A stretch of DNA of 51,178 nucleotides, from NCBI RefSeq assembly GCF_003860125.1, contig NZ_RQYL01000021.1, positions 1 through 51,178 of the forward strand, given 5' to 3'. A model generated the notes under the pieces. It was given only the letters and a program-made list of their open reading frames with translations. It had not been told where the DNA came from and searched no databases. The position numbers were made by a program, and so were the translations under genes. The DNA is from Fretibacterium sp. OH1220_COT-178 (GTDB lineage Bacteria > Synergistota > Synergistia > Synergistales > Aminobacteriaceae). Below, one piece after another: positions 46,703 to 51,065 of the stretch. Each line of letters begins with the position of its first letter. Within the stretch, counting starts at the first letter, position 1.

Positions 46703-46921
46703 TCAGCGCTCCAGAACGACCCGGTACCCTCCGTCGCGCGGCTCCTTCCTCACGCGCCAGCCCTTGTTCTCCGCGAACCGGGCGACGTTGTCGCGCGAGG
46801 TCGCCGTGTCCACCAGAACCTCGACACAGCCCGACTCCAGGCCGGACAGCGCCTTTTTCGTCTCCATCACGGGCTGCGGACAGGAGAGCCCGGAGGCGTT
46901 CACCGTAATGCGCTCGCTCAT
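46703..46921 (-). CDS. TusA/SirA/YedF-like sulfur-carrier protein
   Basis: The 72-residue protein has the family motif GLSCPQPVMETKKAL, where the cysteine carries a persulfide or acts in sulfur or selenium transfer. The remainder (EVLVDTATSRDNVARFA, GWRVRKEP) follows the TusA fold. ATG 46921 follows GAGGAGG. It starts 19 bp after the YedE-like gene and is co-transcribed with it. The pair recurs in many anaerobes, with either thiosulfate or selenium suggested as substrate. Confidence 0.88.
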   Translation of the reverse strand: MSERITVNASGLSCPQPVMETKKALSGLESGCVEVLVDTATSRDNVARFAENKGWRVRKEPRDGGYRVVLER

Positions 46922-46940
46922 GACCAACACCTCCTCAGGC

Positions 46941-48023
46941 CTAGGCCGAGCGGGTCCGACAGGCGAACCCGACGGCCAGACAGAACACGAGCCCGACGAT
47001 CGTCGCCGGGATCCCCGCGGGCCCGACGCCCGCCCCGCTGCTCGCCGTGGAGAAGTTGTGGGCCAGCGCCGCGCCGGTCAGCATCCCCAGGACGAACACG
47101 GCGGCGTCCCCGTCGCCCTCGCCCGTCATGATGAGCTGGCGGCCCGGGCAGCCGCCCGCCAGCGTGAAGGCCAGGCCGGAGAGCACCATGCCCATGAAGT
47201 TCCAGAGCGACTGGGTATGGGCCACGGGCTGCTTCTCGAAGCCGGGATGGAAGTAGCCCAGCGCGTAGCTCGCGGCGAAGGCGGCCAGGGTGAAGGCGAC
47301 GATGCCCTTGAACAGGTGCCCGTCCCCCATCATGAGGAGGTCCCGCAGGGCCCCGACGGTGCAGAAGCGGCTGCGCTGCGCCAGCCAGCCCACGAGAAGC
47401 CCCGCCGCCAGCGAGACGAGCAGGGGCGCGTGCTGCGCTCCCGGCCCCTTCTCGGAGAAGAAGATGGGGCCCGTCCCCTCCGGCCCGAACAGGGGCTTGA
47501 GGACGACCAGGGCCAGCAGCACCAGGGCGATGAACGGCATGACCAGGCCCGACGCCCTCGGGCTGCGCTCGGCGGCGCCGAGGCTGAAGCCGTTCCAGAG
47601 GAAGGCGATGCCCATCAGGACCCCGACGATCAGGCCCCCGATGCCGTAAAGGGCGTTCCAGTCCCCGCCCGCGAGGCGCAGATAGGCCCTCCAGGGGCAC
47701 CCCAGAAAGACCAGCGCGCCGAACATGGCGCACACGCCGAGAAAGAAGCGCACCACGGGCGAGGAGCCGCTGCGCGGCGCGTACTCGCCGAAGGCGAGGG
47801 CCGAGAGGAACGAGCCCAGGATGAACGCCGGGATCTCCGGCCTCAGGTACTGCACCACGGCCGCGCGGTGCAGGCCCAGCGCGCCCGCGATGTCCCGCGT
47901 GAAGCAGGCCACGCAGAACCCCATGTTGCCGGGGTTGCCCAGCCTGACGAGCAGGACGGCGACGAGCCCCAGAATTCCGCCCGTCACCCAGGGCCCGTGG
48001 CGGGACGTCAACAACCTATCCAT
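46941..48023 (-). CDS. YedE/YeeE-like membrane protein
   Basis: The 360-residue protein has nine to ten hydrophobic segments and the conserved Cys-containing motifs of the YedE/FdhT branch: NMGFCVACFTRDIAGALG, FLGCPWRAYLRLAGGDW, SRFCTVGALRDLLMMGD and AGGCPGRQLIMTGEGDGD. YeeE imports thiosulfate, and YedE is associated with selenium metabolism. ATG 48023 follows GGAGG, whereas an ATG six codons upstream sits over that site. With the TusA-like gene it forms a two-gene operon. Which element is moved is not readable. Confidence 0.85.
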   Translation of the reverse strand: MDRLLTSRHGPWVTGGILGLVAVLLVRLGNPGNMGFCVACFTRDIAGALGLHRAAVVQYLRPEIPAFILGSFLSALAFGEYAPRSGSSPVVRFFLGVCAMFGALVFLGCPWRAYLRLAGGDWNALYGIGGLIVGVLMGIAFLWNGFSLGAAERSPRASGLVMPFIALVLLALVVLKPLFGPEGTGPIFFSEKGPGAQHAPLLVSLAAGLLVGWLAQRSRFCTVGALRDLLMMGDGHLFKGIVAFTLAAFAASYALGYFHPGFEKQPVAHTQSLWNFMGMVLSGLAFTLAGGCPGRQLIMTGEGDGDAAVFVLGMLTGAALAHNFSTASSGAGVGPAGIPATIVGLVFCLAVGFACRTRSA

Positions 48024-48041
48024 GTCGAAATCGACCTCCAT

Positions 48042-48485: not shown

Positions 48486-49247
48486 ATGGAAGTTTTTTCT
48501 ATGAAGAAGGTCGTAAGGAATTTCAAAGTCATGGCGGTCCTGCTGGCTGCGGCGGCATTCTCTTTCTCCGCCGGGGCGGGGTATGCCGCGCAGGTGACGC
48601 CCGAGGCCGGGAAGGCCAAGGCTGAGCCGCAGCTGGCGTTCTCCACCATCACACACCAGGAGGAGGCCTTCGAGGCCTCCATCCAGGTGCCGATCCTTCG
48701 CGGCACGGGCAACGCCGAGCTGGAAAAGCGGCTGAACGAACGGTTCCTCGAGGACGCCGTCGCCGTCTACAGGAGCTTCGTTCTCAGGATGGGCGAGATG
48801 AAGAACATGGGGGCCGGCTACTTTTCCATAGCGACCGCCAGCAGGATTGCGGCGCACGGGAACGGCCTCTTGTCCCTGGAGCATCGGGTCACCGAGACGA
48901 TGGCCTCGTCCGGGACCCTCGTCCGTTTCGACAACATCGACCTCGGGACCGGCCGGGAGATCGCGCTTTCGGACCTGTTCAAGGACGACCGCTACACCAA
49001 GCCCCTCACCAAGATCGTCAAGTCCCTCATGAAAGAGGAGATGAAAAAGGACAAGGCGACGGCCTACTTCCTGGAGGAGGTCCCCGAGGTCCGGAAGGAT
49101 CAGCCCTTCTACATCGAGGACGGCAAGCTCGTCCTGGTCTTCGACCAGGGGACCGTGGCGCCCTATTCCATGGGAGCCCGCTCCTTCGTCATCCCCACGA
49201 AGCCGATCAAGGGCCTGCTGGCCCCCTCGCAGAGCTACCTGAAATAG
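48486..49247 (+). CDS. Secreted DUF3298/RsiV-like protein
   Basis: The 253-residue protein has a signal peptide (cleavage near GYAA, residues 32-35) and a DUF3298 domain. Typical elements are NAELEKRLNERF, the LSLEHRVTE strand, GREIALSDLFKDD and the C-terminal FYIEDGKLVLVFDQ, then APYSMGARSFVIP. In RsiV this domain senses lysozyme, but here there is no transmembrane anti-sigma part, so the protein is a periplasmic or exported domain of unknown role. ATG 48486 follows AAAGGGG; an ATG five codons on is possible. A terminator hairpin lies at 49264-49301. Confidence 0.82.
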   Translation: MEVFSMKKVVRNFKVMAVLLAAAAFSFSAGAGYAAQVTPEAGKAKAEPQLAFSTITHQEEAFEASIQVPILRGTGNAELEKRLNERFLEDAVAVYRSFVLRMGEMKNMGAGYFSIATASRIAAHGNGLLSLEHRVTETMASSGTLVRFDNIDLGTGREIALSDLFKDDRYTKPLTKIVKSLMKEEMKKDKATAYFLEEVPEVRKDQPFYIEDGKLVLVFDQGTVAPYSMGARSFVIPTKPIKGLLAPSQSYLK

Positions 49248-49612: not shown

Positions 49613-50770
49613 CTATCCCTCGGCCGCCACCGCCGGCGTCCGGGCCGTGCGCAGGCCGCGCCACAGGGCCACCAAAAGGATCGGCGCGACGATCAGGGGG
49701 GCCGACATCATACCGACCCAGGCGTAGCCCTTGGCGATCAGGGGGATCAGCCCGTAGCTGGCGACGCACCAGGAGGCCGCGACGTAGACGGCCGAGGCGG
49801 CGACGTCCACCCTACGGGACGCGGGCGCTCCGGTGCGCTTGCTCCACCATGTGGTGATGCGGCGGGCGCTCCCGTAGATCAGGCCGACGCCGGTCGAGAC
49901 CACGGCCAGCAGGATGATCCCGGAGACCAGCATCACGCCGAGCGCCCCTCCGCCTCCGTGCTGAGTGATGTACGTGATCGGGGCCTTCTCCGAGAGGATG
50001 ACGGGATAGTGCAGCAGCGCCCCCACGCTGGCGAGGGTCAGCATTCCGGCGTTGACGCAGAAGCCCAGGGCCGTGGTCCGGTTGACCTCGCGCAAGGTCC
50101 TGAGCCCGTCCGCCACCGCCGTATAGGCCCCGACCAGCGAGCACTGGAGCGCCGCGTACTTGACGCTCTGCCACAGGGCGGCCCAGAACCCTCCGTTGGC
50201 CGAGGGCATCTCCCGAACCACCTGCAGGAGCCGCGGGAAATTGACGACCAGGTTGGCGCTGTAGATGATCAGCATCCCCGCGATGATCAGCAGGGACATG
50301 ACCGTGGCGGCCCGACGCACCGTCCCGGAGCCCCAGATGGTGAGGGAGAGGATCAGGAGGGCCAGCCCCACGGTGCCCGCGTGGTAGGGCACGTGCGGCA
50401 GCATGTGGTTCAGCACCGTCCCGCCCGTCGCGAAGGCGACCCCCGTGGCGAGCAGAAGGATGATCAGGTACATGGCCTCGATCAGCATGGAGAAGACCGG
50501 CTCCAGGAAGCCCAGGGGTTCGAAGTAGCGGACGCTCCAGCTATGGTAGTCGTACGCCCCGTGCCGGACCGCGAACTGCCAGGCGCACCAGAGCACCAGC
50601 GCGATGATCCCCACCGACAGGATCGGCGTGAAGAGCGCGTACCACCCGTACTTCACGTAAAAATCGACCAGCTGCCTGCCGCTGGCGAACCCTCCGCCGA
50701 AATGGGTCGCAAACCACACGAACGCGACGGACCAACACGTACCCCACCTGGAACCCGAATCTCCCGACAT
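49613..50770 (-). CDS. YkvI-family membrane transporter
   Basis: The 385-residue protein has about ten hydrophobic helices. It begins with the family-typical ATHFGGGFASGRQLVDFYVK, a glycine-rich unwound first helix like that of LeuT-fold APC transporters, and contains YHSWSVRYFEPLGFLEPVFS and LVGAYTAVADGLRTLREVNR further on. ATG 50770 follows GGAAGGGG. The substrate is not known for the family. Upstream lie a strong promoter, a leader peptide rich in Val, Leu and Ile and a terminator, which suggests control by branched-chain amino acid supply and therefore a related substrate. That last step is inference. Confidence 0.78.
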   Translation of the reverse strand: MSGDSGSRWGTCWSVAFVWFATHFGGGFASGRQLVDFYVKYGWYALFTPILSVGIIALVLWCAWQFAVRHGAYDYHSWSVRYFEPLGFLEPVFSMLIEAMYLIILLLATGVAFATGGTVLNHMLPHVPYHAGTVGLALLILSLTIWGSGTVRRAATVMSLLIIAGMLIIYSANLVVNFPRLLQVVREMPSANGGFWAALWQSVKYAALQCSLVGAYTAVADGLRTLREVNRTTALGFCVNAGMLTLASVGALLHYPVILSEKAPITYITQHGGGGALGVMLVSGIILLAVVSTGVGLIYGSARRITTWWSKRTGAPASRRVDVAASAVYVAASWCVASYGLIPLIAKGYAWVGMMSAPLIVAPILLVALWRGLRTARTPAVAAEG

Positions 50771-50841
50771 CCCGATACCCCTTCCGTTCTCGGCGCGTCC
50801 CGGGCAATACCCCGCGCGCCCAAAATCTCCTGCAAATGCAA

Positions 50842-50871
50842 AAGGCCGGCACCCTTTCGGGTCCCGGCCTT
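50842..50871 (-). terminator. Leader terminator (attenuator) upstream of the YkvI-family gene
   Basis: AAGGCCGGCACCC (50842-50854) pairs with GGGTCCCGGCCTT (50859-50871) with one mismatch and a 4-nt loop. On the minus strand the stem runs into TTTTGCATTT. It lies 22 bp after the leader peptide stop and 71 bp before the transporter start. Confidence 0.75.
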
Positions 50872-50893
50872 GGAGTTCCTGCGACAACGGCGC

Positions 50894-50983
50894 CTAAACG
50901 CCGACCGCTCCCAAGGAGGACCCGCGAACAGAGTGCCGAATAATGATGACGAGGGCAAGAACACGGCAAACACCATGGAACAT
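50894..50983 (-). CDS. 29-residue leader peptide, Val/Leu/Ile-rich
   Basis: The peptide starts MFHGVCRVLALVIIIRHSVR and ends with GAVGV. Codons 8-15 are Val-Leu-Ala-Leu-Val-Ile-Ile-Ile, with three consecutive Ile codons, as in ilv leader peptides. A strong AAGGAGG site (50995-51001) lies 11 nt before the ATG. RNA segment 50913-50923 (GGGTCCTCCTT) after the Ile codons can pair with the 5' arm of the downstream terminator, forming an antiterminator, and its CCTCCTT can alternatively pair with the ribosome site. This is the classical attenuator layout. Confidence 0.6.
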   Translation of the reverse strand: MFHGVCRVLALVIIIRHSVRGSSLGAVGV

Positions 50984-51036
50984 CGTTGCGAGAACCTCCT
51001 TTCGGGGACGCGGCTGCGCCCGCTTAATGGTGAAGT

Positions 51037-51065
51037 ATTTTAAAGACCCGAAACAGTTCTGTCAA
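51037..51065 (-). promoter_or_regulatory. Strong promoter of the YkvI-family leader
   Basis: A consensus -35 TTGACA (51060-51065), an exact 17-bp spacer and -10 TAAAAT (51037-51042) read on the minus strand. Transcription would start near 51029, about 45 nt before the leader peptide. Confidence 0.8.

Follow-up and report, generated by a model that had tools for sequence, protein, structure and literature searches.

A putative branched-chain amino acid attenuator before an orphan APC-fold transporter, and its relatives across the Synergistota

The window considered here, which is the whole stretch of DNA that was analysed, comprises 51,178 nucleotides from the Synergistota bacterium Fretibacterium sp. 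OH1220_COT-178 (contig NZ_RQYL01000021.1). Its minus strand carries an open reading frame for a 385-aa membrane transporter (49,613–50,770), for which a structure model predicts a LeuT-type fold of the APC superfamily, and this gene is preceded by a leader that is the subject of the present report. Among the other genes of the window, those at 46,703–48,041 of the minus strand encode a putative selenium transporter of the YedE type (TIGR04112, E 1.5e-143) and, after it, a TusA-like protein (PF01206), and a 253-aa protein with a DUF3298 domain, whose best NCBIfam match (RsiV) lies below its cut-off, is encoded at 48,486–49,247 of the plus strand.

Read along the minus strand, the leader begins with a sigma-70-type promoter sequence (51,037–51,065), in which TTGACA (51,065–51,060) and TAAAAT (51,042–51,037) are separated by a 17-nt spacer, and continues with the ribosome binding site AAGGAGG (50,995–51,001) of a 29-codon open reading frame encoding the peptide MFHGVCRVLALVIIIRHSVRGSSLGAVGV (50,894–50,983). 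This peptide contains the run Val-Leu-Ala-Leu-Val-Ile-Ile-Ile (50,939–50,962), and 8 of the 12 codons scored in this leader specify Ile, Leu, or Val. The end of the reading frame overlaps the 5' arm of an antiterminator, GGGTCCTCCTTGG (segment 2; 50,911–50,923), and a hairpin, CGGCG-TTTAGG-CGCCG (50,888–50,903), whose loop contains the stop codon of this reading frame. Downstream, CCAAGGCCGGGACCC (segment 3; 50,859–50,873) serves both as the 3' arm of the antiterminator and as the 5' arm of a terminator, which is completed by GGGTGCCGGCCTT (50,854–50,842) and a T run (50,843–50,840), so that this last element spans 50,840–50,854. The terminator hairpin is strong and GC-rich, with a GAAA loop followed by TTTT; the U run of the window's copy is short (TTTTGC). 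Every element named in a preliminary description of this DNA was found again on the minus strand at the positions given there, in the sequence and in the list of open reading frames. The antiterminator, described there as GGGTCC followed by CCTT, is indeed present and proved to be longer, pairing GGGTCC with GGACCC and CCTTGG with CCAAGG. The same description had the ribosome binding site pair with CCTCCTT (50,919–50,913); this candidate protector pairing (segment 1 with segment 2) does appear in the predicted fold of the window, but its CCTCCTT letters belong to the window's copy only, and in the calculation the antiterminator is still favoured when no ribosome is present. No known Rfam family was found in the window at gathering scores.

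In the enterobacterial ilvL, ivbL, and leuL systems, a leader peptide rich in Ile, Val, and Leu is combined with mutually exclusive antiterminator and terminator structures, and the logic of the present leader is the same, with branched-chain amino acid (BCAA) codons placed before an exclusive antiterminator and terminator. We hold it to be highly probable, as the preliminary description had proposed, that the leader acts as a ribosome-mediated transcription attenuator, responding to the supply of Ile, Leu, and Val and controlling the APC-fold transporter; comparison with relatives strongly supports both the attenuator and its specificity. In the cell, a ribosome would translate the 29-codon peptide during transcription of the leader by RNA polymerase. 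A shortage of charged Ile-, Leu-, or Val-tRNA would make this ribosome stall at VLALVIII and leave GGGUCCUCCUUGG free to pair with the emerging CCAAGGCCGGGACCC, a pairing that would block the terminator and allow the transporter to be transcribed. When the supply is good, the ribosome would reach the stop codon and cover or disrupt segment 2, and the terminator would form. The transporter, presumably working in the direction of uptake, would in turn supply BCAA or their carbon skeletons.

That the position of the ribosome governs the fold is borne out by calculation. For transcripts ending before the 3' arm of the terminator, we computed how probable a pairing of segment 3 with segment 2 would be, and the value for the window was 0.82 when the ribosome stood near the Ile codons but 0.00 when it stood at the stop codon; a separate calculation comparing a ribosome at Ile14 with one at the stop gave a similar outcome. 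Over 117 leaders of the same kind, the mean was 0.65 in the stalled state and 0.25 at the stop, against 0.10 in a shuffled control, and a preference of more than 0.2 for the stalled state was seen in 87 leaders and the reverse in 2. Unlike in the classic trp model, calculations without a ribosome likewise yield the antiterminator (0.81 in the window). In other words, an untranslated leader is predicted to read through, and tight shut-off may need efficient translation.

Searches of 83 genomes from the family to which the organism belongs, and of a public collection of contigs, yielded 11 distinct transporter sequences of 60–100% identity, the window's included, and at this level of at least 60% identity the leader is retained in 10 of the 11, again counting the window's (examples are SLLLVIIVTLIRGSSVWVVGV, SLLLVIIIVSLIRGSSVWVVGV, and GLLLVIVISLLIRGSSVRVVGV). 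The ten share the Ile/Leu/Val codons, the C-terminal pattern of the peptide, the antiterminator arm, the stop-codon hairpin, and the terminator. The alignment across relatives that had been proposed as a check thus shows both the regulatory codons and the two alternative structures retained. One ortholog (L005) has no leader upstream, a transporter clade of 54% identity lacks one directly upstream, and in another ortholog (L013) the leader is weakly of the BCAA type (4 of 12 codons) with a low antiterminator score. Within segment 2, the first 11 bases of the antiterminator core, CGCGGGTCCTC, are identical across the ten orthologs, and the pattern of pairing with segment 3 is kept, with 96.7% of antiterminator cells paired. 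The A of GGGACCC, which pairs with the U of GGGUCC, is kept in 10 of 10 orthologs and is mismatched in the terminator in 5 of 10, as is expected if the antiterminator partner holds it in place. It should be mentioned that a MAFFT alignment of both classes of transporter leader (BCAA and aromatic, see below) sets the aromatic stop hairpin two columns out of register, and the pair counts were therefore taken from alignment A2 and from a model-based alignment.

To look beyond these orthologs, a covariance model of the RNA core, with the leader codons excluded, was searched in the family, rebuilt from 42 matches, and run on 188 Synergistota genomes. Matches at E <= 1e-4 occur in 123 of the 188 genomes and in 53 of 63 genera. 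The genome of the window has a single copy of the RNA, found with E = 1.7e-14 by model R2, whose training included that copy, and the next match there stands at 0.126. Among the 42 sequences, both sides have changed in 14 of the 15 pairs of the stop hairpin and terminator (5 of 5 and 9 of 10, respectively), and the covariation score is 0.415, compared with 0.171 after shuffling and at most 0.109 when the structure is slid, figures that come from a model-fitted alignment leaning towards its own structure. The alternative pairing also behaves as the preliminary description implied, since native antiterminator arms pair at a mean of -27.1 kcal/mol and swapped arms at -20.7 kcal/mol, the lowest mean among 2000 arm permutations being -21.9 kcal/mol; in L003, L004, and L008, the native arms are no better than ortholog swaps. 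A promoter-like hexamer pair (at most three mismatches) precedes 101 of 115 leaders and occurs in 28 of 375 control stretches. Eight low-scoring hits (L074, L082, L090, L091, L093, L098, L100, and L101) were judged by eye to be tRNAs or ordinary terminators and were rejected as false. Genus g10, with 43 genomes (G021–G063), yields almost no match to either model, and may have lost the element or may regulate otherwise.

For a wider comparison, 125 leaders were collected, 112 from the model searches and 13 from transporters, and the downstream genes were named by NCBIfam and Pfam. Where the gene could be identified, Ile/Leu/Val codons stand before ilvN, with 25 leaders scored, and before ilvD, Leu codons before leuA, and Ile codons before ilvA (threonine dehydratase) and the gamma subunit of a 2-oxoacid:ferredoxin oxidoreductase. 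Met codons stand before metY, metN, and metQ, Thr/Met codons before aspartokinase and homoserine dehydrogenase, and Phe/Tyr/Trp codons before a PaaK-like ligase. The resemblance to ilv and leu operons drawn earlier for the window is accordingly found within the Synergistota themselves, the same RNA preceding ilvN, ilvD, leuA, and ilvA with fitting codons. Of 66 leaders that were scored, 62 have codons agreeing with the gene if either Met or Thr is accepted for lysC and hom, the expectation for PaaK having been set after its leaders were seen and the others taken from known pathways. The strict match is 61 of 66 and the maximum in 20000 permutations is 38, although agreement is partly inherited among related leaders, so that the permutation figures overstate independence. 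In the ten transporter orthologs, 12 codons each, Ile/Leu/Val make up 71% (22/33/16), and in the ilvN leaders 75% (20/31/24); of all the evidence, this likeness in make-up argues most strongly that all three BCAA would be sensed by the leader of the window. A short reading frame could of course stand by chance before an ordinary terminator, leaving the transporter unregulated by it, and frames of similar size are common in mechanical lists; the leader's retention in different genera and families, its covariation, and the match of codons to genes make such a coincidence extremely improbable.

These codons also bear on the nature of the signal. A terminator-bearing leader before a transporter might instead be a T-box or another riboswitch, binding tRNA or a metabolite, that happens to overlap a small open reading frame, and some copies do have GGGTGG-like letters. 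T-box riboswitches sense tRNA aminoacylation and control amino acid genes by termination, and need no leader peptide or ribosome; the Synergistota RNA is like them in the tRNA aminoacylation that it would sense and in its control by termination, but has a putative leader peptide. With the T-box covariance model there was no match at the gathering score, nor when E was allowed to reach 5, and other Rfam models gave none at gathering scores and weak unrelated hits at E 0.04–0.2. What changes with the downstream gene is, moreover, the codons of the reading frame and not an aptamer. A T-box or known Rfam leader was rejected for want of a match, and we consider a riboswitch of any such kind hardly credible.

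Within the BCAA class, RGSS and VGV of the leader peptide are well conserved, as they would be if the C-terminal RGSSxxVVGV were an arrest peptide and the codons incidental. Leaders of the same build with aromatic codons, which precede distantly related Synergistota transporters (L022, L023, L024, and L154), read the core CGYGGGTCC in another frame, as SVGPSPGVDA, and the codon class follows the gene class. Since the core is read in two frames, it is the RNA and not the peptide that is conserved; we therefore rejected the arrest peptide as very improbable and retain the attenuator. A further attenuator-like match (L028, 1226–1313; E 3.3e-6) with aromatic codons (LWFVYFGF) lies before a distant transporter paralog and lacks an in-frame stop at the usual place.

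Sequence searches of Pfam, NCBIfam, and the PDB gave no match for the transporter itself, and the YkvI-family label of the preliminary description was not confirmed by any curated Pfam or NCBIfam model. Searches bearing on this name, with no B. subtilis YkvI sequence among those compared, gave weak plasmid hits annotated as hypothetical or membrane proteins and a weak match to a "membrane protein" of Bacillus velezensis (E 8e-4). An AlphaFold model (pLDDT 85.7, pTM 0.85) gives Foldseek matches of probability 1.00, the best in the PDB being AdiC, BasC, LysP, and SLC7 transporters. The predicted fold resembles that of APC-superfamily permeases (AdiC, BasC, LysP, and LAT1) with a TM-score of about 0.6–0.7 on the query, at 12–16% sequence identity, and the protein is thus predicted to be an amino acid transporter-like member of this superfamily.

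As for what it carries, the regulation does tie the gene to BCAA demand, and the hint of substrate that the preliminary description took from the leader is borne out in part; the step to BCAA as the substrate is less secure than the attenuator. A clostridial homolog of the transporter (L201) was examined for a T-box that might independently indicate the substrate, and none was found. The genome of the window (99.96% complete) has no ilvN match and an ilvC match below threshold, with ilvD above its cut-off; this makes the acetolactate route to BCAA look incomplete, and the organism probably depends on imported BCAA or precursors. The second possibility has support from gene neighbourhoods. The attenuator could be just as proposed and the transporter could carry branched-chain 2-hydroxy acids (2-hydroxyisovalerate, 2-hydroxyisocaproate) or 2-keto acids, since oxidation of the hydroxy acids gives keto acids, from which transamination yields Val, Leu, and Ile; a BCAA shortage would then induce uptake of precursors in place of BCAA. 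The link to EtfB-EtfA-GlcD occurs in several genera. Downstream of the transporter, EtfB, EtfA, and a GlcD-type FAD 2-hydroxyacid oxidase are encoded in G068 and G076 and a LarAH10-type racemase in G070, while in G074 and G075 the contig breaks off after EtfB or EtfB-EtfA. Upstream of it lie EtfB-EtfA-GlcD in G001, G002, G018, and G019, and GlcD directly in G005, G013, and G015. In G071 (L066 / L216), a BCAA-type leader precedes a gene of the lactate permease family (PF02652) and a LarAH10-type racemase. The hydrophobic 2-hydroxyacids accepted by enzymes of the LarAH10 group include 2-hydroxyisovalerate and 2-hydroxyisocaproate, although linear ones are preferred (PMC11770544). Against such a substrate, the predicted fold resembles amino acid permeases, the window's transporter gene stands alone in a genome with no GlcD match (though a LarAH10-like gene is present), and the GlcD-linked clade of 54% identity has no leader directly upstream. 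These EtfB-EtfA-GlcD and LarAH10 neighbours make 2-hydroxy acids a serious alternative, to which, together with keto acids, we give somewhat under an even chance; BCAA themselves and their 2-hydroxy or keto acids are about equally likely as substrates, and the attenuator is untouched by the choice.

The window's leader is very probably a member of a family of switches that runs through the Synergistota and is undescribed in the papers that could be searched. No attenuator in this phylum was described in the literature covered, which included few subscription papers, and Rfam has no family matching the leader RNA. Leader-peptide attenuation itself has long been known; what distinguishes the present leaders is a single core with exchangeable codons and a stop-codon hairpin set within the antiterminator loop. 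The Synergistota leaders differ from ilvL, ivbL, and leuL in both respects, their one conserved core serving several amino acids, and in the present case also in the target, an orphan transporter in a different phylum. Outside the Proteobacteria, BCAA leader peptides with alternative hairpins have been described for Corynebacterium ilvBNC and other actinobacterial attenuators (PMC11857589, PMC1262725); the sharing of one core across amino acids sets the Synergistota leaders apart. Candidate his attenuators of the Firmicutes were likewise predicted by comparison, as leader-peptide attenuators of amino acid genes, and for the Synergistetes the same study reported HisR repressor sites and not attenuators (PMC9413887).

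The Synergistota use one attenuator design in common for several amino acids. Since the amino acid that is needed can be read from the regulatory codons, such attenuators can be used as an annotation tool, and for the orphan transporter they offer a testable functional clue. They point to BCAA supply for the transporter, to Ile supply for the 2-oxoacid:ferredoxin oxidoreductase, to aromatic amino acids for the PaaK-like ligase, and to BCAA for a set of small proteins. It is an evenly balanced question whether all this amounts to a phylum-wide attenuation regulon, in which one RNA core has its codon cassette swapped among BCAA, Leu, Ile, Met, Thr, and aromatic amino acids and in which, besides classic biosynthesis, the BCAA and aromatic arms govern the salvage of amino acid carbon skeletons through the uptake and oxidation of 2-hydroxyacids, through 2-oxoacid:ferredoxin oxidoreductases working reductively, and through aryl-CoA ligases. 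If so, the codons would expose anabolic roles of genes usually called catabolic, the transporter included.

Some of these leaders deserve mention in their own right. A PorC/VorC-type gamma subunit of 2-oxoacid:ferredoxin oxidoreductase is preceded by leaders in which Ile codons number four or five (L136, L138, L144, L145, L147, and L149), which suggests a reductive, Ile-making role for the enzyme, and leaders with Phe/Tyr codons lie before a PaaK-like aryl-CoA ligase (L137, L141, L146, L161, L165, L168, L174, and L181), which suggests that aromatic amino acids are supplied from aryl acids. In many Synergistota genomes, BCAA-type attenuators are followed by proteins of about 50–75 aa with WRGPFEG[YLVMH]R at or close to the C-terminus, a motif that some of them carry in two copies (L068, L070, L071, L079, L084–L089, L127, L128, and L131; also L119–L122). 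The motif is absent from the window, and in these small reading frames the third codon positions vary, so that conservation lies at the protein level.
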